Assembly (NCBI GenBank): GCA_028280945.1
Contig: JANQKV010000011.1
Span: 1-33,149, forward strand
Direction of reading: 5' to 3'
DNA: 33,149 nt
Source: Opitutaceae bacterium
GTDB taxonomy: Bacteria; Verrucomicrobiota; Verrucomicrobiia; Opitutales; Opitutaceae
Positions 21,781-28,148 of this stretch are shown one piece after another. Made by a program: the position numbers and the translations under genes. Under the pieces are notes generated by a model. That model did not search any database, was not told where the DNA came from, and worked only from the letters and a program-made list of their open reading frames with translations. How positions within the stretch are numbered: position 1 is the first letter of the stretch; every line of letters begins with the position of its first letter.

Positions 21781-22362
21781 TTAACGTCGCCCGACCGTTA
21801 TCGCACAGGCGGCCACGATCCCCAATAAATGCGCCAGCGGCTCCGACCGGATGCCTGTATCAGAAAGCGCCACGACCAGAGGGGTTGTGGACACCCAGTC
21901 CCACCCCAACTTTGCCACCAGCAGTCCGGACACCATTATTCCCACCACCCGGGCTGAACCTTGCCGGCGGAGCAGTTCGATGGCCCAAAGCGTTACCGCG
22001 CCGGTTGCGATTCCGGACAGGCCCCCAAAAGCTGCCATCTCCGGCCTCAACTCCAGCAAAGCGAGACTCATGGCCGGGGCGCCGCAAGCCACTAGCAGCC
22101 AAAGGCTTTGACGACTTGCTCGGTTCAGTTGCGAAGACACCAGCAACAAGGCGCCCACGTCCCAGGCAAGGTGGGTGGATGAGAAGTGCACCCAATGCCC
22201 GGTCCAGAGCCGCCAGACTTCAGCTCCCGAAATCGCCGCGGGCGAGAGCAGCAGGGCGTCATGAAGCCTGGAAGAAGCCGCCACCAGCGCGGCGATGGCT
22301 CCGATGGCGAAAATGGCAGCAGCCTTGGCTGAACACCTTTCCGAAAGCGCGTGATGGGTCAT
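21781..22362 (-). CDS. rrtA: Rhombosortase (rhomboid-family intramembrane serine protease)
   Basis: Intramembrane protease of 193 residues that cleaves proteins carrying a GlyGly-CTERM tail. It has about six hydrophobic segments. The rhombosortase-type WRLWTGHWVHFSSTHLAWDVG block lies at 50-70, the catalytic serine is Ser116 in GGLSG, and the catalytic histidine is His178 in EPLAHLLG. The small size and spacing fit the rhombosortase family (TIGR03902-like) rather than housekeeping rhomboids. Its start overlaps the stop of the upstream lipoprotein gene by 4 bp (ATGA), and that lipoprotein ends in a GlyGly-CTERM-like tail, so the neighbouring gene is its probable substrate. About 106 bp separate it from the yejB start. 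Confidence 0.85.
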   Translation of the reverse strand: MTHHALSERCSAKAAAIFAIGAIAALVAASSRLHDALLLSPAAISGAEVWRLWTGHWVHFSSTHLAWDVGALLLVSSQLNRASRQSLWLLVACGAPAMSLALLELRPEMAAFGGLSGIATGAVTLWAIELLRRQGSARVVGIMVSGLLVAKLGWDWVSTTPLVVALSDTGIRSEPLAHLLGIVAACAITVGRR

Positions 22363-23258
22363 TCGATGGCAGCCCCTTGATGGTATCGCAGCCGGAGGTG
22401 ACGGGCAGCGGCCAAAGCGGTGAGTATGGCCACGAATCCTCCCGAAAGGGATCCGGCTCCCGTGTATCCGGGGCGATGTTCAATCACCGCGGTCTCGGGT
22501 TCCTCGCGCAGGCGAACCTGAAAGCGTAGCAGCTCCTCCTGCAGATTGAGGGTCAGGTCGTCCGCCGCGGCAATGAACCCTTTGCTCGAGTCCTTTATCA
22601 GTTCGTCCTGACTGCCGACCAGGGTGTTGCGGTCCTTGATTGAGCTTACTCCCGGAGCGCGGAACAACAGGCTGCGACTGCTGATGTCGTAGACCACCGC
22701 TTCCATGAGCGTGTGGGTTTCATTTTTGCGTGTCGGGAAAATATACGAACCGATCACCGTCCAGTAGATCAGACTGGCTTCATCATCGATGCTCGCCTGC
22801 GCTTGGTCGAAGGCGATCAGGGCAATGACATCCACGCCCAACACGGATTGAATTTGATCGAGATTTTCGAAACCACCCGCGGACCGAAGGTAGGAGGTGG
22901 GAATGGTTTCGATCTTATCCACGAACGGCAGTTCGCGAAACTGAGCGGCGACTTCGTCGAGCAACTCCTGTTTGCGCGCTTCGGGAAAATCCTGATTAAA
23001 GAAACCGCCCCGCTGTCGCGTGGAACCGGAGGTCGGCGCGAATGCGATGCCGACCCGCAGGGGCAGGCGAAGGGTGGGGATCTGGGGCTCTACCAGCGGA
23101 CGGTCCGCGTCGGGATAGAGGAACTGCACGATGCTGCTCGATTTGTAGTTTGAGCGCCCGGGCAAGGCGCAGCCCGTGAGTGCGATCACGAGCAAAGCGG
23201 CCAGGGCGGCGAGGGCAACGAAGCGGACGGTATGGTCTCGGGATGGATGTGTTTCCAT
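22359..23258 (-). CDS. Rhombotarget lipoprotein (GlyGly-CTERM-tailed)
   Basis: Exported lipoprotein of 299 residues and probable substrate of the overlapping rhombosortase. The N-terminus is a lipoprotein signal (VRFVALAALAALLVIALTGC, lipid Cys30). The middle (RLPLRVGIAFAPTSG, FRELPFVDKIETIPTSYLR, VLGVDVIALIAFDQ, THTLMEAVVYDISSRSLLFRAPGVS) looks like a soluble domain conserved in the rhombotarget lipoprotein family (TIGR04179-like, from memory). The C-terminus has the tripartite tail: a Gly/Ser-rich GYTGAGSLSGG with Gly273-Gly274, a short hydrophobic stretch FVAILTALAAA (275-285), then basic RHLRLR. Cleavage near the glycines would release it from the C-terminal anchor. Its leader shares about 79 bp with that of the gene at 25607-26143. 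Confidence 0.85.
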   Translation of the reverse strand: METHPSRDHTVRFVALAALAALLVIALTGCALPGRSNYKSSSIVQFLYPDADRPLVEPQIPTLRLPLRVGIAFAPTSGSTRQRGGFFNQDFPEARKQELLDEVAAQFRELPFVDKIETIPTSYLRSAGGFENLDQIQSVLGVDVIALIAFDQAQASIDDEASLIYWTVIGSYIFPTRKNETHTLMEAVVYDISSRSLLFRAPGVSSIKDRNTLVGSQDELIKDSSKGFIAAADDLTLNLQEELLRFQVRLREEPETAVIEHRPGYTGAGSLSGGFVAILTALAAARHLRLRYHQGAAIE

Positions 23259-23333
23259 GCCTTCAACTCTACCGCGAAGGCGGGATTCAGCGTTAATCGA
23301 TAAACTTGATGGACTCCATTGATTTGCTCAATG
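23256..23333. promoter_or_regulatory. LysR-type control region and leader of the rhombotarget gene (copy A of a duplicated element)
   Basis: Contains the 20-bp core GTTAATCGATAAACTTGATG at 23292-23311, also present exactly at 26176-26195. Two LysR-like dyads lie here: ATCGA-N5-TTGAT (23296-23310) and the perfect ATTGA-N5-TCAAT (23318-23332), centres 22 bp apart, about two helical turns. Closer to the lipoprotein start a CCGC-GAAG-GCGG stem (23272-23283) occurs. The element sits between the lipoprotein and the divergent LysR gene. Confidence 0.7.
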
Positions 23334-23375
23334 GGCGTTGCCTCGTCGGCCTCCCGGGCGCAGCGTCCTCGCACT

Positions 23376-24269
23376 GTGAATATCCATCATGTCGAGTTGT
23401 TCTATTACGTGGCCCGGCATGGCGGCATCAGCCGCGCCGTGCGCAACATGCCCTACGGCATTCAGCAACCCGCGGTGAGCAGCCAGATTCTCTCATTGGA
23501 GGACGACCTGGGGGCCAAGCTTTTTGAGCGAAACCCGTTTAAACTCACTCCGGCCGGTGAAGCGCTGTATGAGTTTGCCCGGCCCTTTTTCGACAACCTG
23601 GAAGCCACGGCGGAGCGTCTCCGCCAGACTGCCGCCCCCAGCCTGCGGATTGGAGCCTCCGAGTTGGTCCTGCGCGACTACCTGCCGACCGTGATTGCGC
23701 AAGTGCGGGCGCGGGAACCCAAGCTGCGGCTCGGCCTCAGATCGGGATTGCAGCAGAACGTGGAGACTTGGCTGCTCGAACGTGAAATCGACATGGCCAT
23801 CGTGCCGTTGCAAAAGAAGCCCACCGCCAAGCTGCGCTACGAACGCCTGTTGCAGCTGCCCCTCGTGCTGTTGGTGCACCGCGATTCCGAAATTCAATCT
23901 CCCGACGAGCTTTGGCGGCAGGACGTCATCGAAGAGCCGCTCATTTGCCTGCCGGAAACCGAAGCCATCACCCGGGTGTTTCGCGAAGGACTGCGGCTGC
24001 GCAAGGTTGACTGGCCGCATACCGTGGAGTCGAGTTCCGTGAGCCTGATTACTCGGTATGTAGCAAATGGATACGGAGTCGGGGTCAATGTTGCCGCCCC
24101 GCAGGCCATCACCCACCCGGATGTGCGGGTGCTGCCGCTGGGCGATTTTGGTCAGATCGAGATCGCGGTGCTGACCAACGGCAAACCCTCGCCGTTGGTC
24201 CAGCAGGTCATTGCCGCCAGTCAACAGGTGGTGAGCGAAGAGTGGCCGGAGTCACAGCAGGTCCGGTGA
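23376..24269 (+). CDS. LysR-family transcriptional regulator
   Basis: DNA-binding regulator with a ligand-binding domain, 298 residues from the GTG at 23376 (VNIHHVELFYYVARHGG). An in-frame ATG at 23331 would place coding sequence over a LysR-like dyad, so the GTG is preferred. The helix-turn-helix spans about residues 17-45 (GGISRAVRNMPYGIQQPAVSSQILSLEDDLGAKLFER), with the linker helix LTPAGEALYEFARPFFDNLEATAERLRQ. The periplasmic-binding-protein-like effector domain begins near LRIGASELVLRDYLP. It is divergent from the rhombotarget lipoprotein and convergent with the radical SAM gene (3 bp between stops). The duplicated dyad elements beside the two lipoprotein genes suggest it controls both. 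Confidence 0.92.
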   Translation: MNIHHVELFYYVARHGGISRAVRNMPYGIQQPAVSSQILSLEDDLGAKLFERNPFKLTPAGEALYEFARPFFDNLEATAERLRQTAAPSLRIGASELVLRDYLPTVIAQVRAREPKLRLGLRSGLQQNVETWLLEREIDMAIVPLQKKPTAKLRYERLLQLPLVLLVHRDSEIQSPDELWRQDVIEEPLICLPETEAITRVFREGLRLRKVDWPHTVESSSVSLITRYVANGYGVGVNVAAPQAITHPDVRVLPLGDFGQIEIAVLTNGKPSPLVQQVIAASQQVVSEEWPESQQVR

Positions 24270-24272
24270 GGG

Positions 24273-25583
24273 TTATCTCAGCGCCAAATGCCGACGAGCA
24301 AAACGGCGCCGTCGATAATCCGTGAACTCCTTCGAATAGACTTTTTCCGCCAGCGCGATCAGCCCCTGCCGCAATGTCTCCGCGGACATGCCGACCGGAT
24401 CATACATCACATCAAACAGGGTGCATTTCTCCCAAGCCTCCGGATCCCGCAGCCGGTCCTCTGCCTCCAGCCGCCGATAGAGCGGTGTGCCGGGGAATGG
24501 CGTCAGCACCGTCAGCTGGATTTCGTAGAGTTCACTCTCTTGAATGAACTCCCAGATGCGATCGAACGACGCGGGAGTTTGGTCATCGAGCCCGAGGATA
24601 AAACAGCCATTGACGGTGATGCCGTGGTCCTGAATGCGCCGAATGTCCTCCAGGTAGCGGTGAGTCTGCCGGGCTTTCCAGTTGCCTCTCAATTCCAGTC
24701 CGTTGGTGGCTGCTCCCGGGTCTTCCAGCCCGATCAGGATCTGGGCGCATCCCGCGTCGGCCATCTTCTTGAGCAGGGCGGAATCCCGGGCGACCGAAAT
24801 GTCCGTCTCGGTGAACCAGCGCAGCTTCTCACCCCTCATGGCATCCATCAAGGCGTGACCGTGCCGCCGATCCGCAAAGGTGTTGTCGTCGGCCAACTCG
24901 ATGAACGGCACCGGCCACGTCTCGCGGATGCAGTCGAGTTCAGCGATGATCCGATCAATGGGTTTGGTGCGGTATTGCGGCTGCAGCCGGAGGGACGCGG
25001 CACAGAATTCACAATTCCAGGGGCAGCCTCGCGACGTTTGCACCGTCAGGCGATTGTAGCGCTCGGGCTGCAGCAGGTCGAAACGCGGCATGGGTGACTG
25101 CGCGAGATTGAAGGGGCTGTCCGGTTGGTAGCGGGGTCTCAGACGATCACGCTCCAAGTCCTTCAGGATCTGCGGCCAGCAGGGTTCGGCTTCACCCACC
25201 ACGATGGCATGGGCATGAGCCGCGGCTTCGTCCGGACATAACGTGACGTGCAGCCCGCCGAGGATGACCTTGGTGCCGCGGGCGCGATACCAATCCGCCA
25301 ATTGGTAGGCGTCCTTGATCATGGCGGTGAAGCTGGAGATGGCCACCACGTCAAAGGCGCCGAGAAGTTCTCCGTCGGGATTGAGGTCATCGATATCAGG
25401 CACCTCGTGGTAACTGATTTCGTGATGGGCGGGCGTGAGCCCGGCGAGGGTGAGCAGACCGAGCGAGGGCAGGGAGGCGATTACCTGGCTGCGCTCAACG
25501 AAGCCGGGCAGATTCAGGCCGATCCGATGCAATTCGGGGTCAATCACGCGGACTCCGCTCATGGCAATAAAGGCGATTTTCAT
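24273..25583 (-). CDS. B12-binding-domain radical SAM protein
   Basis: Iron-sulfur enzyme generating an adenosyl radical, 436 residues from the ATG at 25583 (MKIAFIAMSGVRV); an open frame extends further upstream but overlaps the next gene and lacks family similarity. Residues about 30-150 form a B12-binding-like domain (SLPSLGLLTLAGLTP, FDVVAISSFTAMIKDAYQLADW, VILGGLHVTLCPDEA, VVGEAE). The radical SAM cluster is Cys187, Cys191, Cys194 in TSRGCPWNCEFCAAS. FIELADDNTFADRRHGHALMDAM, ILIGLEDPG and GCFILGLDDQTPASF follow, as in Elp3/MiaB-type barrels. No cobalamin DxHxxG is visible, so cofactor binding is uncertain. It lies 23 bp after the small membrane lipoprotein and is probably co-transcribed with it. 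The substrate is unknown. Confidence 0.9.
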   Translation of the reverse strand: MKIAFIAMSGVRVIDPELHRIGLNLPGFVERSQVIASLPSLGLLTLAGLTPAHHEISYHEVPDIDDLNPDGELLGAFDVVAISSFTAMIKDAYQLADWYRARGTKVILGGLHVTLCPDEAAAHAHAIVVGEAEPCWPQILKDLERDRLRPRYQPDSPFNLAQSPMPRFDLLQPERYNRLTVQTSRGCPWNCEFCAASLRLQPQYRTKPIDRIIAELDCIRETWPVPFIELADDNTFADRRHGHALMDAMRGEKLRWFTETDISVARDSALLKKMADAGCAQILIGLEDPGAATNGLELRGNWKARQTHRYLEDIRRIQDHGITVNGCFILGLDDQTPASFDRIWEFIQESELYEIQLTVLTPFPGTPLYRRLEAEDRLRDPEAWEKCTLFDVMYDPVGMSAETLRQGLIALAEKVYSKEFTDYRRRRFARRHLALR

Positions 25584-25606
25584 GTCGTTTGATTTGGGTT
25601 GGACAG

Positions 25607-26143
25607 TTAAGCCGGGAGGCTTCCAGAGAGATGGATCAGCAGTGCGACGATTCCTCCCGTAGCGGTGCCTGCGGGTATAAAAAACAGATGCCGAAATCCC
25701 GGTCGCCACGCCGTGAGGAAACAGTTGGTCGACATCGTGGCCAACGCTATGACCAGACAGATACCGCCTATCGAGACCGTCGCTGATGAGACGGATCCCA
25801 CGCTTAAGGCGAAAAGGATGTTGATCAGGCCGATGCCAAAAAAGGCAATATGTCCCAACCGTACCATTCGCCGCGGAAACGCATCGTAGCCCCCGAGCCA
25901 TTCCGGTCGATGAAAGCGCAGGCCGATGAGGGCACCCGATAGCGCACCGAGCAGAAACCCGAACCAACCGGCGAACAGGTTGATCGCGGCCTTCCAGCTA
26001 TAGGCGCTAGTGATCGCCGTTTCCGTGGCCGCGACGGAGGAGGTTGATCTGTCACAACCAGTGATCGCCAACGCGACCAAGCCGAAGACAAGGACCGCGA
26101 AGGCGCGGCGCAAATTCGGAATCGAGACGGACGGCTTTTGCAT
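25607..26143 (-). CDS. Small membrane lipoprotein of unknown function
   Basis: I do not recognise a family. The protein has 178 residues and begins with a lipoprotein signal (LRRAFAVLVFGLVALAITGC, lipid Cys30, the same position as in the rhombotarget lipoprotein). Four further hydrophobic segments follow, near 49-75, 92-112, 114-136 and 148-172. The C-terminus is FFIPAGTATGGIVALLIHLSGSLPA: it has a Gly-Gly before a hydrophobic stretch but no basic tail, so it is at best a degenerate GlyGly-CTERM. It is the first gene of a two-gene unit with the radical SAM enzyme (23-bp gap). Its leader is homologous to that of the rhombotarget lipoprotein, including the LysR-like sites, which ties it to that regulon. 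Confidence 0.75.
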   Translation of the reverse strand: MQKPSVSIPNLRRAFAVLVFGLVALAITGCDRSTSSVAATETAITSAYSWKAAINLFAGWFGFLLGALSGALIGLRFHRPEWLGGYDAFPRRMVRLGHIAFFGIGLINILFALSVGSVSSATVSIGGICLVIALATMSTNCFLTAWRPGFRHLFFIPAGTATGGIVALLIHLSGSLPA

Positions 26144-26218
26144 GCCTCCACCCTACCGCAAACGCGGTTTTCACCGTTAATCGATAAACTTGATGCCCCC
26201 TATCGATTCACTCAATGG
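26141..26218. promoter_or_regulatory. LysR-type control region and leader of the membrane lipoprotein gene (copy B)
   Basis: Second copy of the element at 23256-23333; about 64 of 79 aligned columns match by hand count. The 20-bp core at 26176-26195 is identical. The dyads are ATCGA-N5-TTGAT (26180-26194) and ATCGA-N5-TCAAT (26202-26216), centres again 22 bp apart. The stem CCGC-AAAC-GCGG (26156-26167) is kept although its loop differs. On the minus strand a GGAGG directly precedes the ATG, too close for a normal ribosome site. Confidence 0.7.
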
Positions 26219-26268
26219 CTACGTTTGGCGGGATCACGAGTGACGTGCTTCAAAACTTCGCGGAGAGA

Positions 26269-28113
26269 CTACTTGTGCTCCTCGTAGGTGATCTCGATCA
26301 GGGCGGCAAAAGCCTGCTTTTTGGCCGCGCCTTCGAAGCGGATGCTGTGGGAGAGGTCGTCGTAGACCCAGCCGTTCTGTGGGTCCGCCAAGATCGCCTG
26401 GCCGTCGACGAGCACGTTCAAGCTCGGGGTGTAGAGCGTGGCGCCGATTTCGACCGGATCGAGGGCCACTGCCACGGTGTCGGCGATGCGGTCTCCGAGT
26501 GCGGCAAGGTCGGCGGAGAAATCACTCTCGATGTTGAGTACGGTTCCGCCGGTCAGTTCGGCGGCTCGCCGGTGGGAAACATTGTCGGGTGATACCACGG
26601 CATGCATCTGGATTTTGCCGCGCTGGTTGCCCTTCACGATAATGAAGGGCCGCAGCACCCAGTAGTTGATGTAGCCATCGAGGGTCTGGCGGTCGTCGTC
26701 GTTGCGCCGGTTGTAATCTTCGAGCAGCTCCGGCAGCGTGCCGTCTTCGACCCACTCGGCTTTGCGGAACCCATCTTGGGCGGTTTGCCAAGTCGCCATG
26801 CGGGTCTCCTCTTCGTCCATGAAGTAGACGACAATGGTGGTCGCTTCGGGGCGCAGCAGGTTGTGCTGTCCATTGTGGGCGCCGGCCACGAAGTTATACA
26901 TGGCCGTAAAGGCGGTGCGGTTGCTGGACCCGTTGGTGCCGACCCGCACGAGTTCAGCGAAAACGCTGTCCGGGGTTTCCGGCGTGATCCATGGTTCGGC
27001 CATGGCCGACAACGTTACCAGGTTGCCATTGCTGGCGACCTGCTTGTAGGCGCGGCGGGGTTGGCCATTGCGGCGGAGCACCGGGGCACCGGCTTCGTCC
27101 AGTTCGATCCCGCGCACGCGCTTGGAGTGGCGTTGGTTGGTATTAACGAAGTCGGTGGTGAGCACACCGATTCGGTAGTCGAGTTCGCGCTCGTCGAAGA
27201 GTTGGCGGAAACGCTGCAGGTTGTCTGCAATGCGGCTCTGGTGCGGTGCCATCGAGCGCGAGTTGTTGATCACAAACACCAGGTCGACCTCACGACTGGA
27301 GGAGCGGTCGGCAACCTTGGTCCGGGGCGTGCGAAGGGGTTCGACGGTGATGATGATTTCGTTCTCCACGCCGAGCTCGGGGTTGTTCTCGTCGATCGTG
27401 TAGTAAACGAAGCGATCCTCGCCGATGAAGTTGGGATGGGGCGCGTAGGAAAGCTCACCGGTGTCCCGATTGAGTTGGGCGGTGCCGTGGGCGGGCTTGT
27501 CGTATTCATCAATCGCATACGCGATTTTGGCGTCAACGATGGTGACGCGGTCTGCTGTTTCCATGAAATCCTCATGGTTGGGAAGGGTGCTGGAAACGGG
27601 GCGGTTGGGTCGGGTCTGCAGCGTCACCGCCACGGCCTTGATGGCCCGCTCGCGGTCCACGCTGACCTCAAACGAGTCCATCAGCAACGGCGGTGGTGGG
27701 GTGATTTCGATGATGACATTGTTGGCAAAAACCAGCCCGGTGGTGCGGTTCAACACCTCGTAACTGAAGGAGTCGGTGCCCTCGAAGGCCTCGTTCGGTC
27801 GATAGGCGAAATAGCCGAGGTCGGAGGACTTGTTGGCAAAAATGTCATCGGCGTCACCGCCGGCGAGACCCACCCGGCCATCACTCGGATCCGACGTGAT
27901 GGTGAACACCAGGTCGTCGGACATCTCCGCACTCAGAATCTCGTCGGCCACCCACAACTGGCCGGCCACCCCCTGGCCTTCGGCGGAGTAACGCATCGTG
28001 TCGGGGGATTCCGTCACCGGATTTTGCGCGGATGCGATCAGGACCGAAGTGAAGAAGGCCCAGAGGCGCAGCCCGTGGCGGAGTTGAAGAGAGGACATCA
28101 TCTTGGCAGCCAT
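26269..28113 (-). CDS. Secreted Ig-like repeat/VWA-domain protein
   Basis: Exported protein of 614 residues from the ATG at 28113; ATGs at 28101 and 28098 are alternatives. A signal peptide (LRLWAFFTSVLIASAQ) is followed by two cadherin/Ig-like modules of the bacterial type: LVFTITSDPSDGRVGLAGGD to YFAYRPNEAFEGTDSFSYEV (about 45-140), and AHGTAQLNRDTGELSYAPHPNFIGEDRFVYYTIDENN (about 190-260). A von Willebrand A domain starts near 275 (EVDLVFVINNSRSM). Its MIDAS motif should read DxSxS but reads N-N-S-R-S (283-287), so the first metal ligand is changed. MDEEETRMATWQTAQDG and MHAVVSPDN lie later in this domain. No GlyGly-CTERM or other anchor is visible. It may act in adhesion or surface complexes; its partner is unknown. 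Confidence 0.8.
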   Translation of the reverse strand: MAAKMMSSLQLRHGLRLWAFFTSVLIASAQNPVTESPDTMRYSAEGQGVAGQLWVADEILSAEMSDDLVFTITSDPSDGRVGLAGGDADDIFANKSSDLGYFAYRPNEAFEGTDSFSYEVLNRTTGLVFANNVIIEITPPPPLLMDSFEVSVDRERAIKAVAVTLQTRPNRPVSSTLPNHEDFMETADRVTIVDAKIAYAIDEYDKPAHGTAQLNRDTGELSYAPHPNFIGEDRFVYYTIDENNPELGVENEIIITVEPLRTPRTKVADRSSSREVDLVFVINNSRSMAPHQSRIADNLQRFRQLFDERELDYRIGVLTTDFVNTNQRHSKRVRGIELDEAGAPVLRRNGQPRRAYKQVASNGNLVTLSAMAEPWITPETPDSVFAELVRVGTNGSSNRTAFTAMYNFVAGAHNGQHNLLRPEATTIVVYFMDEEETRMATWQTAQDGFRKAEWVEDGTLPELLEDYNRRNDDDRQTLDGYINYWVLRPFIIVKGNQRGKIQMHAVVSPDNVSHRRAAELTGGTVLNIESDFSADLAALGDRIADTVAVALDPVEIGATLYTPSLNVLVDGQAILADPQNGWVYDDLSHSIRFEGAAKKQAFAALIEITYEEHK

Positions 28114-28148
28114 GTTACGACAAAGGACGCCTGACACGAGCCCGTGTT

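Follow-up and report, generated by a model that had tools for sequence, protein, structure and literature searches.

The tandem operator of OxyR consists of two 15-bp dyads separated by a 7-bp spacer, with half-sites of the form ATAG...CTAT, and the protein senses peroxide through a redox-active cysteine pair in its effector domain. For LysR-type regulators, a promoter layout with a recognition binding site (RBS) and an activation binding site (ABS) has been described, and according to the available text of that source CatM, BenM and others combine HTH_1 and LysR_substrate domains with a T-N11-A box near -65, a second site over the -35 region and divergent genes (PMC8407307). In rhombosortase/GlyGly-CTERM systems rhombosortase adjoins a putative target gene, and the 2011 paper, as far as its available text goes, only suggests that rhombosortase expression might be regulated (PMC3237569). 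In this study, we analysed a stretch of 33,149 nucleotides from an Opitutaceae bacterium (GCA_028280945.1, contig JANQKV010000011.1, positions 1 to 33,149; hereafter the window), in which the leader of a rhombotarget lipoprotein/rhombosortase operon (leader A, with site A) closely resembles that of an operon for a small membrane protein and a B12-binding radical S-adenosylmethionine (SAM) protein (leader B, with site B). As judged from their sequence, both leaders very probably serve as operator-promoters for a single LysR-type regulator, the product of the gene at 23376-24269, so that in the window, unlike in the available account of rhombosortase systems (PMC3237569), a regulator and an operator can be proposed.

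Compared without gaps, the two leaders share 59 of 79 bases (the second leader taken from 26140), and a one-gap alignment gave 64 identical columns of 79 by eye, while the runner-up among all 79-mers of the window, on both strands, reached 40 of 79. Each leader carries two 15-bp dyads with a 7-bp spacer, their centres 22 bp apart, and the exact core common to both is CGTTAATCGATAAACTTGATG. The pattern ATYGATNNNCTYRAT-N7-ATYGATNNNCTYRAT, with three mismatches or fewer, had two matches in the 5.44-Mb genome (96% complete), namely leaders A and B, and the reversed control pattern had none in the same sequence. Taken together, this degree of identity and the presence of only two matches in the genome show a genuine feature rather than a repeat spread through the genome. 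Pure chance was rejected on the comparison of 79-mers in the window, the uniqueness in the genome and the presence of a -10 box at a fixed offset. The initial annotation had described about 64 matching columns, an exact 20-bp core, two dyads with centres 22 bp apart in both leaders and a LysR gene beside the first: the column count and the dyad geometry were reproduced, the core is indeed shared and measures 21 bp, and the LysR gene does adjoin leader A, its start being most likely GTG 23376, where orthologues align, rather than TTG 23319 of the longest frame.

The dyad pattern was present in 27 of the 95 genomes of a first set, in which the reversed control pattern matched once. Thirty-six sites of the window's family were kept for alignment and five pattern matches in other families of the order were left out. 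A TANNNT -10 box, which formed no part of the search pattern that gave these 36 sites, lies 19-20 bp beyond the site in all 36 (26 at 20 bp and 10 at 19 bp; chance expectation 0.22 per offset), and at that distance in 0 of the 5 outside matches, one of which has it at 17 bp. The aligned sites hold two T-N11-A boxes, with T5 in 27 and A17 in 36 sites, and with T27 and A39 in 36 sites each; conservation is strongest in TTTATCRATTAAC plus TANNNT, and no -35 hexamer is evident in this alignment. The -10 box occupies columns 65-70, which puts the predicted dyad centres at about -66 and -44; reckoned from that predicted box, this would be the classic LysR-type layout, and the LysR protein presumably binds the T-N11-A boxes. 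Dyads were also found upstream of LysR genes having other neighbours. The 15-7-15 spacing and the 22-bp centre distance equal those generally known for OxyR, but the half-site in the window is ATYR...YRAT, and no cysteine occurs in the invariant or nearly invariant columns of 17 LysR orthologues. Membership in the OxyR group was rejected for this lack of conserved cysteines, even though the spacing fits.

The encoded protein scored above the cut-offs for PF00126 (53.0 bits) and PF03466 (94.7 bits) and thus has the domains of a LysR-type transcriptional regulator (LTTR), and among the matches listed (25 of 49 families) none reached its NCBIfam cut-off. Its closest solved relatives match only weakly (CatM 55 bits, BenM 52, a Rubisco-operon regulator 52 and OxyR 46); in contrast to the shared layout described above, the similarity to CatM and BenM at the protein level is low, and the window's LysR has its own signature, PYGIQQPAVS, in a DNA-binding domain that is nearly invariant across the 17 orthologues. 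Relatives above 190 bits were found in 20 of the 94 first-set genomes other than the window's own, a count that includes G010 (39% identity) and excludes G004, where the LysR gene is in two pieces. In G004, which belongs to the same genus, the orthologue (locus L057, 9425-9995) lies near glyS, like the LysR gene of the window, but is broken into two pieces that overlap and differ in frame, and neither a rhombotarget gene nor a site was found in that genome. Tandem or multiple LysR copies were seen at L044 (G060), L056 (G049), G208:C2 and G125:C66, and G125 holds ten site matches at E <= 0.05.

The distribution of the site follows that of the regulator. Profile R1, built from the 36 family sites, was run on 220 family genomes (strict filters; 22 scored candidates in each genome), and the same genomes were searched with the LysR protein. 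An R1 site at E <= 1e-4 was present in 59 of 64 LysR-positive vs 5 of 156 LysR-negative genomes, and in the 159 new genomes, that is with all 61 genomes of the first set left out, in 39 of 42 vs 3 of 117; since the genomes are related and not independent, Fisher values on this co-distribution overstate its significance. Of the 126 sites passing this threshold, 5 belong to genomes that lack LysR; among the others, 50 have a divergent LysR start at 400 bp or less, a further 14 have LysR within 10 kb, and 57 are remote, being separated from it by more than 10 kb or placed on a different contig. Such remote sites occur in 35 of the 64 LysR-positive genomes, the genomes being drafts in which a different contig is no proof of distance.

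The two operons of the window recur in part in relatives. LysR is divergent from the rhombotarget/rhombosortase pair, as in the window, in G005, G006, G014, G043 and G046, and among the matches listed, down to E 0.0123, an R1 site lies directly upstream of the rhombotarget gene, which occurs in 44 of the 220 family genomes, in 15 of 24 LysR-positive and 0 of 20 LysR-negative ones. The rhombotarget gene keeps the site with LysR located elsewhere in G060 and G222 (other contig) and in G150 (about 534 kb away). In G006 (L041) the rhombotarget reading frame is interrupted and the site is kept. The small-membrane-protein gene occurs in 12 of the 220 genomes and is preceded by a site in G000 and G040; in G040, a genome of another genus whose LysR lies elsewhere, a site with 0 mismatches precedes the homologue, followed by a B12-binding radical SAM gene in the same order as in the window.

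Clustering of the first genes after 116 sites (36 + 80) showed that the rhombotarget lipoprotein is the largest target group (15 genomes), followed by a PF10520 lipid desaturase (13), a small secreted protein (9), an Amidohydro_2 protein (7), a DUF2339 protein (7) and an LplT-like transporter (6); groups of two to three include TAtT lipoproteins, ceramidase-like proteins, PlsY, an Aas-like acyltransferase and radical SAM proteins, among others, the family names resting on one to three members tested per group. PF10520 was assigned in three members tested, and this Lipid_desat family, second commonest among the targets, is the one that the available text on CarF/PEDS1 desaturases concerns (PMC9131029). 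Unlike that system as described there, the targets score far under the cut-off of the CarF equivalog NF045946 (75.2 and 97.1 bits in two members, cut-off 500), thus plasmalogen synthesis is not established for them. The G012 target scored 225.2 bits with NF008397, below the cut-off of 297, and is called LplT-like after this best-scoring family. The regulon also covers lipid-remodelling genes and is thus wider than the two operons of the window. The proposal of a single regulon is supported, though its extent had been drawn too narrowly, and the expected conservation of the dyads and their spacing was found, as they recur before LysR, rhombotarget and many other genes and track the presence of LysR. 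Co-occurrence of the dyads with LysR, radical SAM and rhombosortase had been suggested as a check; it was found for LysR, for radical SAM in G040, and rhombosortase was assessed only through the neighbouring rhombotarget gene. Inclusion of the small-protein and radical SAM genes in the regulon held in two of the five LysR-positive genomes that own the small-protein gene. That gene had also been labelled a lipoprotein, which is right for the window's genome and not for the homologues: by eye, the lipoprotein signal is absent in all 10 inspected of 11 found, the window's protein having about 50 extra N-terminal residues that bear it.

Related loci extend to other orders. In a scan of named genomes, with the best 80 of 529 LysR relatives kept, a homologue of the small protein was found upstream of LysR on the opposite strand at five loci of orders other than Opitutales, L318, L326 and L346 (Verrucomicrobia), L330 (Pedosphaera) and L335 (Limisphaerales); it is directly divergent within about 0.15 kb at L326, L330 and L335, and lies 0.7 kb away at L318 and 2.1 kb away at L346. 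The homologue at L330 has 40% identity over 107 residues. A TTTATCRAT core stands upstream of LysR in 5 of these 5 loci, and an eighth inspected locus, L344, had no such core. R1 matches at E <= 0.01 numbered 65 in the best 80 of 529 loci, 51 of them (by eye) 300 bp or less upstream of LysR on the opposite strand. In these more distant loci the proximal dyad has a weak outer arm. A conserved GCAAG element was seen in the spacer between site and promoter at L315, L318, L326, L330, L334, L335 and L346; no such element stands out in the aligned sites of the window's family.

For the window we propose that LysR would bind as a tetramer, with one dimer at the distal dyad (about -66) and the other at the proximal dyad (about -44), the latter occupying the place of the missing -35 element; with ligand, it would recruit RNA polymerase and activate both the rhombotarget-lipoprotein/rhombosortase and the small-membrane-protein/radical-SAM operons. 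Bound at site A, just upstream of its own divergent gene, LysR would probably also regulate itself. Binding, direction of control and signal are what we infer here, and a number of points weigh against this model. Five LysR-positive genomes have no good site, namely G004 (LysR broken), G010, G120, G175 and G227 (37-44% identity), of which G010 has a weak R1 match (E 0.0078) beside LysR. Five LysR-negative genomes carry one (G003, G008, G202 at the limit with 1.0e-4, G231 and G240), and in these five, all drafts, no close LysR came up in a profile search. The site does not precede the rhombotarget gene in 9 of 24 LysR-positive genomes, nor the small-protein gene in 3 of 5 (G105, G135 and G217), and a conserved frame is lacking downstream of 19 of the 116 sites. 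At seven core-bearing loci inspected in other orders TA is at 20 bp in 7 of 7 and the full TANNNT in only 3 of 7, and the dyad spacing there is 21 bp by eye, which makes the exact 22 bp a feature of the window's family. To these are added the relatedness and draft state of the genomes noted above, the choice of activation over repression, which comes from geometry only, and the kind of support for the proposed control by LysR, which is sequence and co-distribution.

The site might instead be used by a different regulator, or by an alternative sigma factor, with LysR as merely one of the targets. The five genomes that keep the site without LysR would fit this, as would the strongest conservation, TTTATCRATTAAC plus TANNNT, which sits where a sigma factor could act; yet TANNNT is an ordinary -10 box, the two T-N11-A dyads have LTTR geometry, the distribution of the site follows LysR (59 of 64 vs 5 of 156 genomes), and the core still stands upstream of LysR in other orders, so we consider this unlikely. 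Control by LysR of only itself and its divergent neighbour, with remote sites as chance matches or relics, would account for the 50 of 126 sites that adjoin LysR, but 57 remote sites occur in 35 of 64 LysR-positive genomes, vs any site at all in 5 of 156 LysR-negative ones, and they repeatedly precede the same gene families, which leaves this explanation quite improbable.

It is slightly less probable still that the leaders are alike through a recent segment duplication alone, with no shared regulation. Leaders A and B are identical at 0.80 over 70 columns (rank 2 of 630 pairs) and at 0.75 in the supposedly neutral spacer (rank 3 of 630; mean 0.36, standard deviation 0.12), as a duplication would predict, but in many genera dyads and -10 box persist in front of genes that are not homologous, which implies that function, and not descent alone, keeps them, and for this reason duplication without function was rejected. 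Duplication is compatible with shared control and would explain it. Site B is probably a copied rhombotarget leader, perhaps with the start of the signal peptide, the coding similarity being too weak for proof: the signal codons of the two genes score 61 against each other, a value reached in 12 of 1000 shuffles of codons and 9 of 1000 of bases, and rhombotarget signal regions from other genomes gave 66 (G005) and 75 (G043), both higher, and 50 (G014), which is lower, when compared with the small-protein gene.

The distance from -10 box to start codon further suggests leaderless mRNAs. The start codon follows the box by 6-9 nt in 14 of 15 rhombotarget genes, and in the fifteenth (G006) an ATG two codons past the GTG chosen by the script is at 6 nt. 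In the window, the rhombotarget ATG lies 7 nt and the small-protein ATG (by eye) 6 nt after the box. At 6-9 nt the predicted transcription start coincides with the start codon or adjoins it, which would give a leaderless mRNA; the rhombotarget mRNAs are thus probably leaderless, and the small-protein gene of the window fits this prediction too. In five other target families, 24 of 35 located starts are 12-56 nt after the box and one is at 102 nt; the remaining 10 are no more than 8 nt away, a range in which the start codon picked by the script is uncertain.

The features of the window are given in Table 1. The radical SAM protein exceeded the cut-offs of both its domains (PF04055, 46.2 bits, cut-off 29.5; PF02310, 35.1 bits, cut-off 32.1), and the small membrane protein matched no NCBIfam or Pfam family at E <= 0.001, with one sub-threshold Tim17-like match. 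Immediately upstream of leader B, positions 26269-28137 of the same strand encode a large protein that contains a bacterial Ig domain (Big_9).

Table 1. Genes, predicted sites and promoter elements of the window; positions count from its first nucleotide.
Feature	Position	Strand	Remarks
Rhombosortase gene	21781..22362	-	TIGR03902 96.5 bits, above cut-off 84; overlaps lipoprotein gene
Rhombotarget lipoprotein gene	22359..23258	-	TIGR04179 287.8 bits, above cut-off 150
Site A with promoter	23266..23335	-	
Site A, -10 box TAGAGT	23266-23271	-	predicted driver of rhombotarget lipoprotein gene; LysR gene on opposite side
Site A, TAAC	23292-23295	-	
Site A, proximal dyad	23296-23310	-	ATCGATAAACTTGAT; ABS-like, about -44
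Site A, distal dyad	23318-23332	-	ATTGATTTGCTCAAT; RBS-like, about -66
LysR-family regulator gene	23376..24269	+	GTG start, 297 aa, HTH_1 + LysR_substrate
B12-binding radical SAM protein gene	24273..25583	-	PF04055, PF02310; second gene of site-B operon
Small membrane protein gene	25607..26143	-	N-terminal lipoprotein signal, residues 1-30; conserved part from near residue 53
Site B with promoter	26150..26219	-	
Site B, -10 box TAGGGT	26150-26155	-	predicted driver of small membrane lipoprotein and radical SAM genes
Site B, proximal dyad	26180-26194	-	
Site B, distal dyad	26202-26216	-	

A LysR regulator with a two-dyad operator is of a known kind. The literature searched yielded no description of this regulator family, of its operator or of the gene set, and no paper listed there dealt with such a LysR regulon in Verrucomicrobiota or with control of rhombosortase by LysR. 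Several of the named target groups act on membrane lipids, hence membrane state is proposed as the probable signal, and the membrane and lipid genes that bear the site in relatives point to an undescribed cell-envelope control circuit. On a wider and tentative reading, to which we give somewhat less than an even chance, the PYGIQQPAVS family of LysR proteins would sense the membrane across Verrucomicrobiota and, through one tandem operator, activate a membrane-maintenance regulon with routes differing by lineage, comprising a CarF-like desaturase, LplT- and Aas-like lysophospholipid repair, PlsY, ceramidase-like enzymes, envelope lipoproteins and the rhombosortase system, with leaderless rhombotarget mRNA and recruitment of genes by leader copying; the copied leader may here have carried the lipoprotein signal onto the membrane protein of the window. 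The analysis would thus provide a concrete regulator, operator and target list for bacteria with little gene regulation described in the literature searched, a candidate control circuit for the rhombosortase system that is linked to membrane-lipid genes, and an operator specific enough for predicting regulons from sequence in uncultured genomes.

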